From NCBI RefSeq assembly GCF_000024905.1, contig NC_013522.1:186001-250000 (forward strand): a stretch of DNA of 64,000 nucleotides, in the 5' to 3' direction. A program made the translations under genes and the position numbers. This stretch comes from Thermanaerovibrio acidaminovorans DSM 6589. GTDB taxonomy: Bacteria; Synergistota; Synergistia; Synergistales; Synergistaceae. Positions 20,162-29,466 of the stretch are shown here, in pieces (the stretch's first letter is position 1; each line of letters opens with the position of its first letter). The notes under the pieces were generated by a model. That model had not been told where the DNA came from, searched no databases, and saw only the letters and a program-made list of their open reading frames with translations.

Positions 20162-21739
20162 TCAGGCCCCCTTGGGAGCCTCCGCTGGATCCGTCTCCTG
20201 GTCCACCGGTCCCATGCCCTTCATGATCGCCCTGGCGGTCCCCAGGGCCATGAGGCACATGAAGAAGAGGATGGGGAACCCCGCCACGGTGGCTATCTGC
20301 TTGGTGGCGTCGATGCCGGATATCTTGCCGGAGCTGCTCAAGAGGTTGATTATGGCCATTGAGGCCATGGTGATGCCCCAGAAGATCTTCATGGGCGCCG
20401 GGGGCTCCTTGCCCTCCAGGTGGCTCCCGGTCATGGACAGGGACGCCACGGTGGTGGTCATGGAGTCGCAGAGGGTGACTATGGAGAGGATCAGCACCGA
20501 TATGAAGATCCAGGACCAGGCGGTGCCCAGGGGGTAGTTCTTGAGGAAGGAGAAGACCGAGACCTCCAGCCCCGACTTCTGGATGGAATCCCATATCTGG
20601 CCCCCGTGTATCTGGGAGTGGATGGCGTTGCCCCCGAAGATGGAGAACCAGAGGAGGCCGAAGGCCGAGGGGAGAACCACGTTGAAGAGCAGGAACTGCC
20701 TTACGGTCCTGCCGTAGGAGAGCCGGGCCAGGAACATGCCGATCAGCGGCGCGTAGGCGAGCCATATGGCCCAGTAGTAGACGGGCCACCACCTGGGCCA
20801 GGGGCTCCCGTCTATGGGGGACAGGAACATGGTCCGCTCGAAGAAGGAGTCCAGGAAGTGGCCGAAGCTCTGGACCCCCAGGTTTAGGATGAAGCTGGTG
20901 GGACCGACAACGAAGAAGAAGAGCATCATCAGGAGGAAGATCTTGGCGTTGTAGTCCGAAAGGATCCTTATGCCCCTCATGATGCCAGAATAGGAGGAGA
21001 CCACGTATATGGTGACCGTTATGGCGAGCACCGTCGCCCATACGGTTTTGCCGGTCTTGATCCCCGTCAGGGTCTGAAGGCCGCTGCCCGCCTGCATGGC
21101 CCCCACTCCAAGCACTGCCGCCACGCCGCCGGCGATGGCAAGGAGGCATATGTTGTCCACCAGTGCGCTTACCGTTCCCCGGGTTCGGTTGCCGAAGAGG
21201 GGATAGAGGGTGGAGCTTACCGAGTAGGGGAGCCCCATGTTGTAGGCGCAGTAGGCTATCCCCAGCCCCGCTATGCCGTACATGCTGTAGGGGATGAAGG
21301 TCCAGTGGATGAAGGTGGTCACCATGGAGAACATGGCGGCCCCCTCGCTCTGGGGCTTGAGACCCAGCACGTCCGGAGGGCTCATGAAGTGGGTTATGGG
21401 CTCCGCTATGCCCCAGAAGAGGATCCCGGTGGCTATCCCGCCGCAGAGGGAGATGCTGAACCACTGCCAGTCGGTAAGGGTCGGTTTGGCATCCTTGCCA
21501 CCGAACTTTATGTCCCCGTACTTGGAGAACCCGAGGTAGGTGCATATGGCGAGAAACATGACGCTGGACAGCTGAAACAGCCAGCCGAAGTTGACGAAGG
21601 CGAACTCCACTATGGCGTTCTCCGCCTTGTAGAACGCCTCGGGGGCCGCAATGCCAAGGGCTATGGCGCCGATGAAGATGGCCGCCATTGGGTAGAATAC
21701 CTCCTTGCGGACCTTCATGTCTCCGTTTCCTGCTAACAT
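20162..21739 (-). CDS. BCCT-family carrier for a betaine-like quaternary amine
   Basis: A 525-residue carrier with 12 membrane segments. BCCT signatures are GILFWGIAEPITHF (segment 4), and YYWAIWLAYAPLIGMFLARL with SYGRTVRQF (segment 8 and the loop after it). The family moves betaine, choline, carnitine and similar trimethylammonium compounds. ATG 21739 follows GGAGGGA by seven bases. It is the last gene of a five-gene minus-strand operon whose other members are a MIO-less HAL homologue and a three-subunit molybdenum hydroxylase. Ergothioneine, itself a histidine betaine, is my favoured substrate; this is inference from context. Confidence 0.85.
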   Translation of the reverse strand: MLAGNGDMKVRKEVFYPMAAIFIGAIALGIAAPEAFYKAENAIVEFAFVNFGWLFQLSSVMFLAICTYLGFSKYGDIKFGGKDAKPTLTDWQWFSISLCGGIATGILFWGIAEPITHFMSPPDVLGLKPQSEGAAMFSMVTTFIHWTFIPYSMYGIAGLGIAYCAYNMGLPYSVSSTLYPLFGNRTRGTVSALVDNICLLAIAGGVAAVLGVGAMQAGSGLQTLTGIKTGKTVWATVLAITVTIYVVSSYSGIMRGIRILSDYNAKIFLLMMLFFFVVGPTSFILNLGVQSFGHFLDSFFERTMFLSPIDGSPWPRWWPVYYWAIWLAYAPLIGMFLARLSYGRTVRQFLLFNVVLPSAFGLLWFSIFGGNAIHSQIHGGQIWDSIQKSGLEVSVFSFLKNYPLGTAWSWIFISVLILSIVTLCDSMTTTVASLSMTGSHLEGKEPPAPMKIFWGITMASMAIINLLSSSGKISGIDATKQIATVAGFPILFFMCLMALGTARAIMKGMGPVDQETDPAEAPKGA

Positions 21740-21795
21740 CCCAATCCCTCCTCTCATGTCTCGTAAAGCCCATGGATCGTCGCTTGCAAAACCCC

Positions 21796-23319
21796 TCAAA
21801 GGTCCCGGTAAGCCACCACCTCCCCCAGTGCATCCCTGGATGCCTTAAGCAGACCTCCCCCGGCGATGAGGGCCTGGGCGGAGAGGATGTCGCACGACAG
21901 GTCCCGGTCCACATCCAGGAACGCCACCTCCCGCCGGAGACGTTCCAGGGCGGCGGAGGATCCGACGCCGTAGCGGGCGCCCCTCAGGTCCATCCCCTGG
22001 GCTGCGTGGATGGCCTCGATGGCCAGGAGGGCCTCCAGCCTCTGGGCGATCTGACCCAGCTGGTCCATCACCATGGGGGTGTTGCACCCCCGGTCCTCCT
22101 GGTCCTCCGAGAGGGACTCCACGTCCATGGAGCAGGGGTTGCACAGGTGCCGCACCTCCGCCAACAGGTAGGACAAGGTCTTCTGGATCACCCCGAAGGC
22201 GTGGCAGTTGCAGGGATCGTTGTTCAGGAACCGGGGAAGGCCGGTGAACCGGTCGGAGCCTAGCCTCAAGGTCCTCCGGGCCACAGTCTGGGCCAGGTGT
22301 CCGAGGGCCACCTTGAGGCCCTCGAAGTGGACCACCCACGGCAGGGGCTCGAACAGGGCGGAGGGGACCACAGTCCCGTCCGGGAACGCCAGGGGGTTGT
22401 CGTCCGGGGCGTTGATGTGGGCGGTGAGGACCTTAATGCAACGCCGGATCAGGTCCCTCACGGTCCCGTGGACCATGGCGGAGCAACGGAGCGACAGGGG
22501 ATCCTGAAGGGACTTCGGGTCATCCCAGATGTAGCTGCCCGCCAGAAGCGACCGGACCGTCTGGGCGCTCCTTTGGGCCCCCGGGGAGGGGTAGAGGTCC
22601 ATGGCCCTTGGGTCCAGGGGGGAAGGGTTGCCGTGGAAGGCCTCCAGGGTCATGGCGTAGACCAGGTCCGCGGTATCCACGATCCTGCCGATCCGGTCCA
22701 GGATCAGGGCCCCCAACGCTTCCCCCAGGGCGTTGGAGGTAACCAGTCCCAACCCGTCCTTGGGCCCCGGCTGAACGGCCTCGAGCCCCATCCGCTCCAG
22801 CTCCGGGCCGGAAGGAACCGGCCTGCCATCCTGGATCACTAACCCCTGTCCGGTCATCACCAGCCCCAGGTGCGATAGGCACGCTATGTCCGCCTCCCCC
22901 ACGGAGCCCCTAAGCGGTATGGCCGGGTGGACCCCCAGGTTTATCATGTCCTTGAGGAGGGTTATGAACCGGGGCGTTATCCCCGTGTAGCCCATGAGGA
23001 GGTGGTTCAGCTTGATCACCATCACTGCCCGGGCCTCCTCCAGGTTCCCGTAGGGGGGGAGCCCCACGCAGTGCACCTGAAGCATGTTCATGTTGTAGCG
23101 GCAGTAGCTGTCCTTGGTGACCTCCTGGTCCTTGTTTATCCCCACCCCGGTGTTGAGGCCGTATACCTTGGGGTGTCCCCTGTTGGCTATGTCCATCAGC
23201 GCCTCCCAGGTGGCGGTGCACCTCTGGAGGGCCTCCGGGTGGATCTCCACCCCCTCCCCCCGGGCCACCGATAGGACCTGGTGGATCGAGATCGGGCGGT
23301 CGCCAAGGGTGACGGTCAT
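21796..23319 (-). CDS. HAL-family lyase without the MIO triad; candidate ergothionase
   Basis: 507 residues, the usual length of histidine ammonia-lyase, and clearly homologous throughout. HAL landmarks kept: Tyr53 (VYGLNTGVG), Asn196 (LVTSNALGEA), Arg278 (DPLSLRC) and Glu408 (EDQED). What is missing: residues 142-144, which in HAL are Ala-Ser-Gly and cyclise to the MIO electrophile, are Glu-Ala-Asp here (GSVGEADIACLSH), and the active-site Tyr of HAL's DPYSLR is Leu275. MIO-dependent ammonia elimination should therefore not occur. Ergothionases are known HAL relatives that lack MIO because trimethylamine is a better leaving group. With a BCCT carrier next door, ergothionase is the best guess; another betaine lyase is possible. 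Its ATG overlaps the TGA of the Mo-subunit gene. Confidence 0.75.
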   Translation of the reverse strand: MTVTLGDRPISIHQVLSVARGEGVEIHPEALQRCTATWEALMDIANRGHPKVYGLNTGVGINKDQEVTKDSYCRYNMNMLQVHCVGLPPYGNLEEARAVMVIKLNHLLMGYTGITPRFITLLKDMINLGVHPAIPLRGSVGEADIACLSHLGLVMTGQGLVIQDGRPVPSGPELERMGLEAVQPGPKDGLGLVTSNALGEALGALILDRIGRIVDTADLVYAMTLEAFHGNPSPLDPRAMDLYPSPGAQRSAQTVRSLLAGSYIWDDPKSLQDPLSLRCSAMVHGTVRDLIRRCIKVLTAHINAPDDNPLAFPDGTVVPSALFEPLPWVVHFEGLKVALGHLAQTVARRTLRLGSDRFTGLPRFLNNDPCNCHAFGVIQKTLSYLLAEVRHLCNPCSMDVESLSEDQEDRGCNTPMVMDQLGQIAQRLEALLAIEAIHAAQGMDLRGARYGVGSSAALERLRREVAFLDVDRDLSCDILSAQALIAGGGLLKASRDALGEVVAYRDL

Positions 23320-25562
23320 CGTACGTTCCCTCCATTCATGGCGGAAACTATCCTCTCGGGGGTGAAGGGCAGCTCCGTCATGGAGGTGCCCAGCGCCATG
23401 TTCACCGCGTTGCATATGGCGGGGGCCACCGGCACGGTGGCTATCTCCCCAATGCTCTTGGCCCCGAAGGGCCCTCCCTCCTCCCCCTCCTCCACCAGGA
23501 GGACCTTCACGTCCGGCATGTCCGGGCAGTTGGGCATGTGGTACCGGCTCAGGGAGCCGCAGAGGGGCCTGCCGGATCGGTCGTACCGGAGCTCCTCGCT
23601 GAGGGCCATGCCGATCCCCATCTGGACCCCCCCCAGAATCTGGCCCCGCAGGAGCTTGGGGTTTATGGCCCGGCCCACGTCGTGACAGGCCAGGTAGTCG
23701 GTGACCCGCACCAGGCCGGTGAGGGTGTCCACCTCCACCTGGGCGAAGTGGACCCCGAAGGATGCGGGGTTGTCCACCGGGTGGTGGGTTCCATGGGAGG
23801 CCAGCTCCAGCTTCAGCTCCCGCAGGGCCCTGGTGGCCAGATCCCGATAGGTCATGGAGGTCCCGTCCAGCTCCAGCCTTCCATCCGCGAACCGGACCCG
23901 GCTCGGGTCCCCCTCCAGCCCCGCAAGGCGGAGGAAGGCCTCCGCCATGAGGTCCTTGAGGGACCTTGCGGCCTCCAATACCGCGGATCCGCATACGTAG
24001 GTGACCCGGCTGGCCACGCAGCCCACGTCGAAGGGGCTCAGATGGGTGTCCGCCTCGCTCACGAAGACCCTCTCCACCGGCAGCGACAGGGCCTGGGCGG
24101 CTATCTGGGTCATGGCGGTCATGGTGCCGTTGCCCAGCTCCTGGAAGGCGCCGCTCACTAGGGCGGAGCCGTCCTCGGCGAGCCGGATGGAGATGCCCAT
24201 CACGTCTAGGAAGGGGGAGCCGAAGTAGCCGTTCCCGTGGGAGGCGCAGGCGAGCCCCACCCCTTGGACGAACCGGCCCCCCTTGCCATTCTCCAGCTCG
24301 TCGCGCCTCTCCGCCCAGCGGAAGGCCTCCATGCCCCGGGTGAGGCAGTCCCTGACCCGGGCGTTACCCAGGTTCGGGGCCCCGGTGGGGTCCGGGTCGA
24401 AGGGGTGCACCAGGTTGCGGAGCCTCAGCTCCGCCGGGTCCATCCGGAGGCGCCGGGCCATCAGGTCCATGGCTATCTCGGTTATGGCGTGAATCTGGGG
24501 GGATCCGTAGCCCCTGCAGGGCCCGCTGGGGACCGTGTTGGTGAACACCGTGATGCCTAGGAACTCCTGATGGGGGATTCGGTAGAGCCGGAAGGCCTTC
24601 TTCCCCATGGCCATGGTTATCCTGTGTCCCCCGGAGGCGTAGGCCCCTGCGTCGCAGATCACGTGGATTCGGCGGCTGAGTATCCTCCCGTCCCGCCGGG
24701 CGGTCATGTGAACCTGCCCCACCGTGGCGGCCCGGCTCCTGGTGGAGTTGATGGTCTCCTCCCGGGAGGTGGTTAGGAGCACCGGGCGCCCGGTGAGCAG
24801 GGTCATGAGGGCGCATCGGGTCTCCAGGATCACCTCCTGCTTGCCCCCGAATGTGCCCCCCATGGGGGCCTTGATCACCCGGACCCGGCTCATGGGGAGT
24901 CCCAGCGCCTGGGAGAGCACGTACCGGACCGCGAAGGGCATCTGGCAGGGGGACTCCACCACCAAGGTGGGGCCATCCATGTAGCTGAGGCAGATGTGGG
25001 GCTCCATGGCCCCGTGGTGTACCTTTGGGGTGCTTGCCGTCACCGAGAGGGTCTCGCACTCCTCCTGGTGAACCTCCTCCCCGGCGGATATCCGCCCCTC
25101 CAGCCGCCCGGGCCTTGAGTCCAGGAAGGGCCTCTCGAGGGCCTGGTGGATGGACACCACCGGCTCCATCGCCTGACATAGGACCCTGACCCTTAAGGCC
25201 GCCTCCGCTGCCCCCTGGGGTGTCCTGGCCAACACCGCCCCGACTATGTCCCCCACGAAGAGGGGCCGGTCGGTGAATATCCTCTCGTCCCTAAGGTCCG
25301 TCTGGTCCTCCATGTAGACCGCGCTGTTGAAGGGTTTGAGGAGCGGGTCATCCTGGGGGGTGAATATGCGCACCAGGCCGTCCACCCGGTTGGCTTCAGA
25401 GACCTGGAACCCGTGGACCCAGCCGTTGGCCACCGGGCTGGTTATTAGCCTCCCGTGGAGCACGTCGCCGGGGAGCCGATCCGCCAGGAAGCGGAAGGTG
25501 CCCCGCACCTTGGCCTCCCCGTCCAGGCGGTTCAGGGGGATCCCAACCTTGCCTTCCCTCAA
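23316..25562 (-). CDS. xanthine-dehydrogenase-family molybdenum-binding subunit
   Basis: A 748-residue large subunit of a molybdenum hydroxylase. The N-terminal part (about 10-110) is the a/b hammerhead domain (FVGDIVGAVLA); the molybdopterin part shows GGTFGGK near residue 240, PCRGYGSPQ near 345 and the catalytic Glu in GAKSIGE near residue 707. The TTG start at 25562 has GGGAGG eight bases upstream and lies five bases after the FAD-subunit stop; a longer frame reaching 25892 overlaps that subunit and is rejected. The family hydroxylates N-heterocycles or aldehydes. Context suggests an imidazole or thio-imidazole derivative rather than xanthine, but this is inference. Confidence 0.86.
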   Translation of the reverse strand: MREGKVGIPLNRLDGEAKVRGTFRFLADRLPGDVLHGRLITSPVANGWVHGFQVSEANRVDGLVRIFTPQDDPLLKPFNSAVYMEDQTDLRDERIFTDRPLFVGDIVGAVLARTPQGAAEAALRVRVLCQAMEPVVSIHQALERPFLDSRPGRLEGRISAGEEVHQEECETLSVTASTPKVHHGAMEPHICLSYMDGPTLVVESPCQMPFAVRYVLSQALGLPMSRVRVIKAPMGGTFGGKQEVILETRCALMTLLTGRPVLLTTSREETINSTRSRAATVGQVHMTARRDGRILSRRIHVICDAGAYASGGHRITMAMGKKAFRLYRIPHQEFLGITVFTNTVPSGPCRGYGSPQIHAITEIAMDLMARRLRMDPAELRLRNLVHPFDPDPTGAPNLGNARVRDCLTRGMEAFRWAERRDELENGKGGRFVQGVGLACASHGNGYFGSPFLDVMGISIRLAEDGSALVSGAFQELGNGTMTAMTQIAAQALSLPVERVFVSEADTHLSPFDVGCVASRVTYVCGSAVLEAARSLKDLMAEAFLRLAGLEGDPSRVRFADGRLELDGTSMTYRDLATRALRELKLELASHGTHHPVDNPASFGVHFAQVEVDTLTGLVRVTDYLACHDVGRAINPKLLRGQILGGVQMGIGMALSEELRYDRSGRPLCGSLSRYHMPNCPDMPDVKVLLVEEGEEGGPFGAKSIGEIATVPVAPAICNAVNMALGTSMTELPFTPERIVSAMNGGNVR

Positions 25563-25567
25563 GGGGC

Positions 25568-26389
25568 TCACCTCCCGTGAGTCAAAATGCACCTGGCCAG
25601 GTCCTCGCCGAGCCCCATTACCGCCCTGCGCTTGTAGGGCATGGAGGCCCTGGTTGGGATCGCCATCTCCACCGCCCTGGAGAGGATCCGGGGGAGTTGC
25701 TCCATCAGGTCCCGCCCCTTTAGGGCCAGTATGGCCTCCTCCGCCTGGGGGCACCGGACCGGGGTGGGTCCGATGGCGCCCATGAAGACCCGGCAGACGT
25801 TGGAGCCCAGGTCCGCCGCGAAGGCCAGGTTGAGCTTCGATATGGTCACCTGCCGACGGGATCCCACCTTGCCGAAGAAGGATATGTCCCATCGGTTGGT
25901 CACCCGGAAGGACACGATCAGGTCCAGCGGGCTCTGGACCACCCGACCCCGGGTGGACAGTAGCCCCTCCAGGGGCTCCAGCCGGGTCATGTGATCCCGG
26001 GGGTTCAAGACCTCCACCCGGGCGTCCAGGGCCAGCAACATCGGGACCGCGTCCGCCGCGGGGGAGAGGTTGGCCACGTTGCCCCCCAAGGTCCCCCGGT
26101 TCCTTATCTGGGGGGATCCCACCATGGACGCCATGTCCCTGAGCCCTTGGGGGACCGATGCCTGGGCCACCTCCGCGAAGGTGACCCCGGAGCTAAGGAG
26201 GATCTGGTCCCCCAGCTGTAGCCTTCGAAGCTCCGGGACCGACGTGAGGTCCACCAGGGGCCCTGGCAGGCCGTGGCGGTTGATCTGGGGCACCAGGTCG
26301 GTGCCGCCGGCGATGTAACGGGTCTCCTCCGGCGCGCAGGCGACGGATTTGACCAGCTGGTCCAGGCTGGTGGGCTTCAGGTGAGTCAT
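25568..26389 (-). CDS. xanthine-dehydrogenase-family FAD-binding subunit
   Basis: A 273-residue CoxM-type subunit that passes electrons from the Fe-S clusters to FAD and on to NAD or another acceptor. FAD-binding loops are YIAGGTDLVPQ (residues about 25-35) and IRNRGTLGGNVANLSPAAD (about 95-113). The C-terminal CO_deh_flav_C part includes VTISKLNLAFAA. Its ATG overlaps the TGA of the 2Fe-2S gene (ATGA at 26386-26389), giving strict translational coupling. Confidence 0.88.
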   Translation of the reverse strand: MTHLKPTSLDQLVKSVACAPEETRYIAGGTDLVPQINRHGLPGPLVDLTSVPELRRLQLGDQILLSSGVTFAEVAQASVPQGLRDMASMVGSPQIRNRGTLGGNVANLSPAADAVPMLLALDARVEVLNPRDHMTRLEPLEGLLSTRGRVVQSPLDLIVSFRVTNRWDISFFGKVGSRRQVTISKLNLAFAADLGSNVCRVFMGAIGPTPVRCPQAEEAILALKGRDLMEQLPRILSRAVEMAIPTRASMPYKRRAVMGLGEDLARCILTHGR

Positions 26390-26850
26390 GATCCCCTAAG
26401 CCTCCTGGCGGCGTCCAGCACCGCCTCCACCATGGGGACGTAGCCGGTGCAGCGGCACAGGTTACCCGACAGGGCCTCTGCCACCTGCTCCCTGGTGGGA
26501 TCCGGGTTTGACGAGAGGAGGGCGTAGGCGGACATGATCATCCCCGGAGTGCAGAAGCCGCACTGGACCGCGTCGTTGTCCACGAAGGCCCGCTGGATCG
26601 GGTGGAGTACCCCCATCCTCTCCAGCCCCTCCAACGTGAGGATCTCCGATCCGTGGGCCTGGAAGGCCATCACGGTGCAGGAGGTAACCGGGCGGTGGTC
26701 CATGAGGACCGTGCAGGCCCCGCACTCCCCCTCTCCGCACCCCTCCTTTACGCTCCTCATGCCCAGGTTCCGTAGCATGTCCACGAGCCTCTCGGAGGGG
26801 GCTGGGGAGTAGGTCACGGGGCTCCCGTTCAGGGTGAACCGTACTGACAT
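26386..26850 (-). CDS. xanthine-dehydrogenase-family 2Fe-2S subunit
   Basis: A 154-residue CoxS-type subunit. The N-terminal plant-type cluster uses KEGCGEGECGACTV with a later Cys in TSCTV; the C-terminal four-helix cluster uses VQCGFCTPG and NLCRCTGY. All eight cluster Cys are present. ATG 26850 follows AAGGGGGG by six bases. It is the first gene of the five-gene operon, and its ribosome site lies in the right arm of a hairpin (26855-26877). Confidence 0.9.
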   Translation of the reverse strand: MSVRFTLNGSPVTYSPAPSERLVDMLRNLGMRSVKEGCGEGECGACTVLMDHRPVTSCTVMAFQAHGSEILTLEGLERMGVLHPIQRAFVDNDAVQCGFCTPGMIMSAYALLSSNPDPTREQVAEALSGNLCRCTGYVPMVEAVLDAARRLRGS

Positions 26851-26854
26851 GTAA

Positions 26855-26877
26855 ATCCCCCCTTGTACAGGGGGGAT
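26855..26877 (-). promoter_or_regulatory. hairpin enclosing the ribosome site of the lyase/hydroxylase operon
   Basis: On the minus strand ATCCCCCC-TGTACAA-GGGGGGAT forms a perfect 8-bp stem. The right arm contains the Shine-Dalgarno sequence of the 2Fe-2S subunit gene, six bases from its ATG. It could block translation until opened, or act as a terminator after the sensor kinase gene, though the T tract that follows is poor. Confidence 0.45.
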
Positions 26878-26910: not shown

Positions 26911-28628
26911 TCAGCGGGCCCTTATGCCTATCCTCTCGTACTGGTCAATCACCTGTTTGGCGAAGTGCTCCACCCGTTCCACCAGCCCATCCGGGTCCGG
27001 GGAGGCGCCAACCTTGATGTCCTCCTCCAGCTTGGCCAGGTACTCCCGAGCCCCTGAGTGGCCCACGGTGGCGAACCGGCCCTTCAGCTTGTGCACCACC
27101 GATGCGGCACCCGCCAGGTCCCGCCGGTGTAGCAGCATTCGTAGCGTCTCCAGCATCAGGGGGACCCCCTCCTTGAAGAGGGTCAGGGCCCTCTCCATCA
27201 CCTCCACCTGTCCCATGGCCATGTCGGACAGCACGCTGGTATCCACCTCTGCATTCTGGTCCCCCTGCCCGTCCCGCTCTCCCGTCCCTCCTTTGACTCC
27301 GAAGAGACCATCTATGGCGGATTGAAGTTCCATGACCGACACGGGTTTTGTTATGAACAGGTCCATTCCCGCATTGAGGCACCGCTGTTTGTCGTGCTCC
27401 ATCACGCAGGCGGTTAGGGCCATTATGGTGGTCTTACCCCTCGAGGGATGTCTGGCTTCGATCCGGCGGATCTCCTTGGTTAGCCACACCCCATCTCCCT
27501 CTGGCATGTTAACGTCCAGGATGGCCAAGTCGAACCTCTTTTGGAGGAAGAGGTTCAAAGCCTCAATGCCGGTGGATGCGCTGGTGACCTGGTGGCCCAT
27601 GGAGACCAGCATGGCCTCCACCAGCTCCCGGTTCAGGTTGTCGTCCTCCGCCAGCAGGATGTGGAGTTTCGGCGTGCTGCGGTCCTCCACCTGCTCCTCA
27701 CCTCCCTGTTCCGTCTTCGAATCCCCCTGCACCAGGGGCAGATAAAGGGTGAAGGTGGACCCCTCCCCGGGGGCGCTCTTGAGGGCCATGGTCCCCCCCA
27801 TGGACTCCGCCAGTTTCTTGCATATGGCCAGTCCGAGTCCTCGCCCTTTATCCCGGTCCTCCGGGGAGGCCTGGTAGAAGGGGAGGAACACCTTCTCATG
27901 TTGGTCCTCCGGGATCCCCCGTCCGGAGTCGATGACCGATATGGCCAGCCGCTGATCCTCCACCTCCGCCTCCACGGAGATCATCCCCCGGTCGGAGAAC
28001 TTTATTGCGTTGGTGAGCAGGTTCAGCAGGATCTGCCTCACCCGGTCCTGATCGCCGTTTACTAGCTCCGGCACCGACTGGGATACCCGGGTCAGCATCA
28101 TTATCCCCTTGGATTCCGCCATGGGTGCCACGAACCGGGTGGTGTTGGCGACCAGCTTCCTCAGGTCGTAGGGGACCGCCTTGAGGGCCATCCGGTCCCC
28201 GGAGATCTCCGACAGGTCAAGCAGATCGTTGGCGATCCGGAGCAGGTGCCCCGAGGCCTCCCTTATGCACTCCAGCCACCGCCGGTTGGGGGAGGCGGAG
28301 ACATGAGGCACATCTCCGACATGCCTATTATGTTGCTCAACGGGGTCCTGATCTCGTGGCTTATCTGGGAGATGAGCAGGTCCTGACGCCTCCCGTGGAT
28401 CATCTCCACCAGGATGAGGAGCTCCCCCTGGGGGAGGGTACAGAGCCTCACGGGCCTGAAGGGGCGCCCCTCCAGGGTCACCGTCCCGTCGGGTTTAAGG
28501 GACGATAGCTCCTCCGGGAAGCGGGACAGGATCCGCTCCCCTTCCTGGTTGGCCCCCACCGGGGGGCCGTCAGGGGGCAGGATTATGGCCGGCAGCTCCA
28601 GATCCTCCAGGTCCACCTTTAAGGCCAT
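26911..28628 (-). pseudogene. hybrid histidine kinase (HisKA-HATPase-REC-Hpt) with a frameshift
   Basis: Two overlapping frames make one protein. The first (28628 down to 28263) has a short PAS-like start and the phospho-acceptor site SHEIRTPLSNI, then stops after MSPPPPTGGG. The second continues at SPNRRWLECI in the -1 frame and carries HATPase_c (NLLTNAIKF, GRGLGLAI), a REC domain (LLAEDD, ILDVNMPEGDG, ITKPV) and an Hpt domain (HKLKGRF). Adding one C to the C5 run (G5 at 28288-28292 on the plus strand) rejoins them as about 572 residues. This may be a real inactivation, a phase-variable or programmed slip, or a sequencing error. It lies just upstream of the hydroxylase/lyase operon, which it might control. 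Confidence 0.75.
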
Positions 28629-28642
28629 TTCACCTCACCCGC

Positions 28643-29320
28643 CTATATGGGCTGGTACTTCTTTATGGGGCGCCCCTTTGGCTGGTAGTGGTTCTGGGCT
28701 ATCAGCCTACCGGTGGATACCAGGGCCTCGCAGTACTTGCGGACCGTTATCCTGGATATTCCTATCTTGTCGGCGATCTCCCCGGCGGAAAGGGGCCGCT
28801 CCTCCTGGGAGAGCACGTCCATGATACGCTGGGCCGTGTCCCCCCGCTGGATCCCCGAGGTGGAGTAGAGGTTGAGCCGGCTCTCGGGGTAGAAGACCCG
28901 GTCCAGCTGCTCCTGGGCCAGTTCCGCGGGCAGCGAGGCCCGGTAGCGGAACGCGTCCTTGTAGGAGTCCAGGGAGACCCGGAGCCGATCGTAGGAGAAG
29001 GGCTTCACTATATAGTCCCAGGCGCCGAGCCTGAGGGCCTCCACCGCGTCCGCCTTCCGGTAGGAGCTGGTTATTATTATCACGTCCGAGTCCAGGTCCT
29101 CGTTCCGGATGGTGAGCATCACCTCCTTGCCGTCCACCTCCGGCATGGACAGGTCCAGCAGCACCAGGTCCACCTTGTGGGCCCGGATCTGCTCCAGCGC
29201 TTCCCGACCGTTCTGGGCCTGGCCCACCAGGAGGAAGTCCCCCAGGGAGTTCACCAGCCGGCCTATGATGAAGGACACCATGGGGTCGTCCTCGGTTATC
29301 AGGGTCCGTACGGGCTTCAA
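28643..29320 (-). CDS. response regulator, CitB/DcuR-like
   Basis: A 225-residue regulator: REC domain (about 1-120) with the acidic pair TEDDP, phospho-Asp in LVLLDLSMPEVDG and Lys in IVKPFSYDR; a linker; and a C-terminal winged helix (LSAGEIADKIGISRITVRKY). This is the architecture of regulators for organic-acid use. TTG 29320 has GGGGG eight bases upstream. The kinase gene follows 14 bases after its stop, so the two form a two-component pair. Because the next operon downstream on the same strand codes for the lyase, hydroxylase and carrier, those genes are a plausible target. Confidence 0.85.
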   Translation of the reverse strand: MKPVRTLITEDDPMVSFIIGRLVNSLGDFLLVGQAQNGREALEQIRAHKVDLVLLDLSMPEVDGKEVMLTIRNEDLDSDVIIITSSYRKADAVEALRLGAWDYIVKPFSYDRLRVSLDSYKDAFRYRASLPAELAQEQLDRVFYPESRLNLYSTSGIQRGDTAQRIMDVLSQEERPLSAGEIADKIGISRITVRKYCEALVSTGRLIAQNHYQPKGRPIKKYQPI

Positions 29321-29466
29321 ACTAAGCACCCCCTTTAGTTCTGACACCCAATAATATATAGCATAAGTTTCAATATGGCCATAGGGCACCCAAAAAATCC
29401 TTTAATGCTCCCCCTTGGGCGGGTGTGATGTATCATTGGAGCATCAATCTGTTGGAGGTGGGGGAT

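Follow-up and report, generated by a model that had tools for sequence, protein, structure and literature searches.

The question raised by this locus is what five adjacent minus-strand genes of Thermanaerovibrio acidaminovorans might jointly accomplish, given that they encode a three-subunit molybdenum (Mo) hydroxylase, a homologue of histidine ammonia-lyase (HAL) lacking the MIO triad, and a carrier of the BCCT family. The genes lie in the 64,000-nt stretch of DNA analysed here (the window), within a genome of one contig of 1,848,474 bases. A sequence-only reading had proposed that the set serves the uptake, elimination and further oxidation of ergothioneine, and had regarded the role of the hydroxylase as new. 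Our analysis suggests that the operon is very probably one for anaerobic catabolism of ergothioneine, an antioxidant known from mushrooms, proceeding through uptake, trimethylamine elimination, reductive desulfuration and the Hut route to glutamate. The host strain, Su883T, comes from the reactor of a sugar refinery and is a thermophile and strict anaerobe that lives by fermenting amino acids. Histidine and glutamate are fermented to acetate and propionate, H2 is the sole reduced end product, and betaine does not support growth (PMC3035242).

Inspection of the sequence confirmed five intact open reading frames between positions 26850 and 20162, and their Pfam assignments agreed with the families first named. 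In the order of transcription, they encode XdhC-, XdhB- and XdhA-like Mo-hydroxylase subunits, the lyase and the carrier. These genes and the features around them are as follows.

26386..26850, minus strand: XdhC-like [2Fe-2S] subunit, 154 aa (Pfam Fer2_2, 116.6 bits; Fer2, 34.3 bits)
25568..26389, minus strand: XdhB-like FAD subunit, 273 aa (Pfam FAD_binding_5 and CO_deh_flav_C)
23316..25571, minus strand: XdhA-like molybdopterin subunit, 751 aa, proposed thiourocanate desulfhydrase (Pfam Ald_Xan_dh_C and MoCoBD_1/2)
21796..23319, minus strand: putative ergothionase-family trimethylamine lyase, 507 aa (Pfam Lyase_aromatic, PDB match, fold and tree)
22888..22896, minus strand: E142-A143-D144, found where MIO enzymes have the triad Ala-Ser-Gly(-Asp) (from alignment to HutH and to relatives)
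20162..21799, minus strand, start probably at 21739: BCCT carrier, proposed ergothioneine importer (Pfam BCCT, 453 bits)
26911..29389, minus strand: two-component system of hybrid kinase and response regulator, candidate regulator (families)
26857..26875, minus strand: inverted repeat CCCCCC-TGTACAA-GGGGGG, possible operator or leader hairpin (read from sequence)

The gene overlaps previously noted were upheld at the three upstream joins (XdhC/XdhB, XdhB/XdhA and XdhA/lyase), where stop and start codons do overlap. The lyase/BCCT overlap is probably not real, since it requires a TTG start at 21799, whilst the ATG at 21739 follows a GGAGG and appears the better candidate. When the operon was scanned for promoters and terminators, no hit rose above chance. 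The inverted repeat at 26857-26875 is perfect and directly precedes the gene for the XdhC-like subunit, with which the operon begins. The two-component system, which is found at the corresponding position in the two other Thermanaerovibrio genomes, may possibly regulate the operon. Its hybrid sensor kinase gene (26911-28628) is interrupted by a frameshift at about 28270-28310, in a CCTCCCCC stretch, relative to another copy (genome G175, locus L033) that forms one open frame; the frameshift may reflect a real mutation, a sequencing error or slippage.

The lyase was aligned with the MIO-type HutH that the same genome encodes separately, revealing GSVG-EA-D in place of GSVGASGD; the triad is absent, as had been recognized from the sequence, and one residue is deleted. 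In the ergothionase of Treponema denticola and the ergothionase-type relatives examined, the triad is likewise replaced with a one-residue deletion. The T. denticola enzyme (6s7j) was also the best PDB sequence match, at 328 bits compared with 182 bits for the best HAL, and the score against the hutH equivalog model TIGR01225 was 293 bits, far below the cut-off of 539. When an AlphaFold2 model of the lyase (mean pLDDT 92.1) was used for structural searches, 6s7j ranked first in Foldseek (TM 0.93-0.96) and had a Z of 48.3 in VIA-align 2, where the next entry scored 45.2 and HALs 42-43. Ergothionases and HALs are not separable by fold alone, however; it is the MIO triad and the tree that separate them.

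A quick tree was built by maximum likelihood from 93 sequences (80 ergothionase-type, 8 MIO-type and 5 of a third type). A branch with support 100 set all 80 ergothionase-type proteins, including the T. denticola enzyme, apart from HutH and from the third type, which is the opposite of the placement among MIO enzymes that the sequence-only reading had named as fatal to it. As judged from its sequence, the lyase is thus ergothionase-type and not a MIO-dependent HAL, and the elimination step that had been predicted holds up. Within the tree, it belongs to a basal subclade of five, together with proteins from the two other Thermanaerovibrio genomes and from two genomes (G112 and G114) that share a genus with a Dethiosulfovibrio record. 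Residues Y53, N62-K63-D64, H83, D188, K380 and E408-D409, invariant across 37 relatives, are all kept in the window lyase, whereas its subclade has I, A or V instead of W61 and EDR instead of EDH. These two replacements give rise to our main reservation on the lyase substrate, and the preference of this subclade might differ from that of the T. denticola ergothionase.

Other HAL-family genes were observed near ergothionase operons. A third clade, with GSVGY---L and a three-residue gap at the MIO site, occurs in Synergistota, Natroniella and spirochaetes (L042:15378-16916, L120:13379-14905, L133:8188-9723, L135:4499-6118 and L041:390-1979). There are also adjacent pairs of HAL-family genes, one member having GSTGLSDL (L097:15017-17850, L080:8668-11463, L052:16147-18555 and L086:144-2463), which possibly encode a two-subunit lyase.

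The neighbourhoods of lyase genes were surveyed in one scan of named genomes and another of 188 Synergistota genomes, with loci read to about 20 kb. An XdhA of the same clade as that of the window lay no more than 8 kb from the lyase in 26/31 loci of Synergistota, 22/23 of Clostridia, 8/11 of Tissierellia and both loci in each of Negativicutes, Spirochaetia and unclassed Bacillota (2/2 each), but in none of the 27 from Bacilli. It was missing nearby in five of the 31 Synergistota loci and in some others. Chance placement in the T. acidaminovorans genome would give such proximity in roughly 4% of cases, and the association is not due to chance. The contrast between non-Bacilli loci (62/73) and Bacilli loci (0/27) yielded a Fisher value of about 6e-16 which, because the loci are related, measures association rather than independent events. 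The adjacency of lyase and XdhA is kept in at least three phyla, and the BCCT gene is linked to the lyase across phyla. A single dedicated Mo-enzyme clade travels with ergothionase in Synergistota, Clostridia, Tissierellia, Negativicutes and Spirochaetia.

The Bacilli loci instead contained a thiohydantoin desulfurase (25/27) and a thiourocanate hydratase (22/27). One representative of each was called by its NCBIfam cut-off (hydratase NF058530, 1024 bits against 930; desulfurase NF058529, 615 against 440) and the remainder by clustering. No surveyed locus carried XdhA together with either of these enzymes. The proximity of this lyase clade to thiourocanate-specific enzymes in Bacilli gives the strongest genomic support for ergothioneine as the substrate, and the pattern suggests two solutions for one intermediate, a Mo enzyme in anaerobes and a hydratase with a desulfurase in Bacilli. 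A large AAA/TPR regulator of about 1000 aa, which may control ergothioneine use, was encoded near the lyase in 45 loci (e.g. L046:2037-5033); Thermanaerovibrio has the two-component system in its place.

The 43 lyase-linked XdhA proteins (that of the window and 42 others) formed one clade with support 100, outside of which were found the three other XdhA-like proteins of the genome, a second XdhA type encoded near some of the ergothionase operons, and 4-hydroxybenzoyl-CoA reductase. The window XdhA scored 550 bits against the xanthine dehydrogenase equivalog model NF043082, short of its cut-off of 780, and the XdhC-like subunit also lay below the cut-offs of XDH-type equivalog models. Whilst the generic Mo-site motifs Q, RGYG and GAKxxGE are retained, the Q of the GQG loop is replaced by C, N, H, S or T in 43/43 linked proteins (G480-N481-G482 in the window) and is present in 11/11 unlinked ones. 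The superfamily does not have GQG throughout, as an alignment with PaoC showed GTG. The clade-wide loss of Q offers a sequence marker by which annotation may separate likely desulfhydrases from xanthine dehydrogenases. Whether the enzyme hydroxylates or reduces is not readable from sequence. The best PDB sequence match of XdhA was 4-hydroxybenzoyl-CoA reductase (1rm6, 257 bits), a member of the same superfamily that provides a precedent for reductive chemistry in the xanthine-oxidase family; it nevertheless occupies another branch of the tree and keeps the GQG loop that is changed in the ergothionase-linked clade.

The genome encodes an XdhC/CoxI maturation gene. MocA, YqeC and MoeA-like genes were observed near several Clostridia and Peptoniphilus operons (L070, L081, L122, L068, L120, L136, L137 and L140), which suggests cytidylated or selenium-type cofactor maturation there. 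They prompted consideration of a selenium-dependent Mo hydroxylase in T. acidaminovorans, an idea that was set aside as YqeC was not found in its genome. At six other loci (L052, L058, L059, L062, L086 and L113), a second XdhA/XdhC/XdhB set adjoins the ergothionase gene; it forms a separate clade with about 30% identity to the window XdhA.

Genes for a true urocanase, about 67-76% identical to the HutU of the T. acidaminovorans genome, were found at several anaerobe loci, and those for HutI and FtcD were also present at both Sporomusa loci; their position beside several operons points to urocanate as the product of the Mo enzyme. Amongst the Synergistota genomes, urocanase was encoded in 27/29 of those with the lyase and 87/159 of those without (Fisher p of about 3e-5, from raw genome counts uncorrected for kinship or genome completeness). 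In T. acidaminovorans, HutH, FtcD, HutI and a cyclodeaminase-like gene are clustered and HutU is located elsewhere. The latter is the sole urocanase-family gene of the genome, of true HutU type and with approximately 30-35% identity to the Bacilli hydratases; a thiourocanate hydratase was not found in this genome.

The carrier was placed in the BCCT family by a Pfam score far above the cut-off of 27, and no second BCCT was found in the genome. It scored below the cut-offs of the carnitine and choline models and gave 393 bits against the glycine betaine model NF047988, for which the cut-off is 650. Its aromatic-box positions W166, Y171, Y174 and W346 are kept, the roles of which we take to be those of their counterparts in BetP. 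From its linkage to the lyase we infer that it transports ergothioneine, and the uptake step first envisaged is likewise favoured by the occurrence of this linkage across phyla.

The proposed pathway would begin with import of ergothioneine by the BCCT carrier, followed by elimination of trimethylamine by the MIO-less lyase to give thiourocanate, as its membership of the ergothionase clade suggests. The XdhCBA enzyme would then reductively remove the ring sulfur, consuming two electrons that probably enter via the FAD and [2Fe-2S] subunits, to yield urocanate and H2S. Urocanate could pass to glutamate through the Hut route, for which the genome holds the complete gene set (HutU, HutI and FtcD). 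For a fermenter with H2 as its only reduced product, the desulfuration would provide a two-electron sink per ergothioneine.

The sequence-only reading had the Mo enzyme acting in further oxidation, and oxidative hydroxylation of thiourocanate or a downstream imidazole would accord with a subunit plan that is that of the oxidative hydroxylases and with the retained generic motifs, from which the direction stays unfixed. We consider it unlikely: a gut-bacterial xanthine-oxidase homologue is described as reductively cleaving the aromatic C-S bond in ergothioneine catabolism, according to a PNAS paper citing Feng et al., JACS 2025 (PMC12771579), and for this reason 'further oxidation' was probably the wrong direction. 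Several of the loci also encode true urocanase, HutI and FtcD, enzymes whose substrates are urocanate and the compounds derived from it, and oxidation would impose an extra reducing burden on an organism disposing of electrons as H2 alone. On the same account, the role of such an enzyme in ergothioneine catabolism was already described, and is hence not new as had been supposed. A further scheme, which we regard as improbable, is that the basal lyase of the Thermanaerovibrio/Dethiosulfovibrio type and the GNG-loop Mo enzyme use a related but different substrate, or that the Mo enzyme runs another reaction (e.g. hydroxylation or hydrolytic sulfur removal), constituting a separate anaerobic branch.

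It is very unlikely that the operon serves hercynine (histidine betaine), which the lyase would convert directly to urocanate, with the Mo enzyme acting on something else. The deviations of the window subclade at W61 and the H of EDH, otherwise well-kept positions, would suit such a substrate, yet hercynine requires no Mo enzyme, and the link between the lyase and the XdhABC clade recurs from phylum to phylum. Moreover, XdhA proteins of the window's subclade are paired with main-branch lyases in other Synergistota (G044 and G110), therefore both lyase types share one type of XdhA partner, and the Bacilli relatives adjoin thiourocanate-specific enzymes. An accidental adjacency of an ordinary HAL, a xanthine dehydrogenase and a glycine betaine carrier is what generic family names would yield in annotation, but is extremely improbable given the missing MIO triad, the HutH, XdhA and betaine BCCT equivalog scores below cut-off, the presence elsewhere in the genome of a MIO-type HutH and of three further XdhA-like genes, and a host with no reported growth on betaine; such an annotation was ruled out by the trees, cut-offs and linkage.

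Ergothioneine catabolism with reductive desulfuration thus remains the preferred reading, and can be compared with known systems. The T. denticola ergothionase (6s7j/6s7q), reportedly the subject of work by Maurer et al. in 2019, shares with the window lyase its fold, the MIO deletion, a supported clade and the invariant Y53, NKD, H83, K380 and ED residues, but the two are only 37-38% identical, and the window subclade is without W61 and has EDR for EDH. The hydratase/desulfurase route begins with the same step, carried out by the same lyase clade, whilst its enzyme pair was not seen at any XdhA-bearing locus.

The operon also resembles the gut pathway of Feng et al. which, as secondary sources describe it, employs an ergothionase and then a xanthine-oxidase-family enzyme on the C-S bond in anaerobes, as the window operon would. 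The window Mo enzyme is of the xanthine-oxidase family and linked to ergothionase in anaerobes, matching the description of thiourocanate desulfhydrase, which releases H2S according to another paper (PMC13405746). The desulfhydrase of Feng et al., known here through secondary description, would belong to the ergothionase-linked XdhA clade. Relative to that pathway, the window host is a thermophilic Synergistota organism from a bioreactor, and the BCCT and Hut links come from the genome data presented here. The pathway was already reported from gut bacteria in 2025, and the window operon is a well-supported example of it. This analysis extends it to Synergistota and adds the swap between the Mo enzyme in anaerobes and the hydratase/desulfurase pair in Bacilli, the link to the Hut route, the loop signature, and a cultured type strain for anaerobic ergothioneine breakdown to trimethylamine and H2S.
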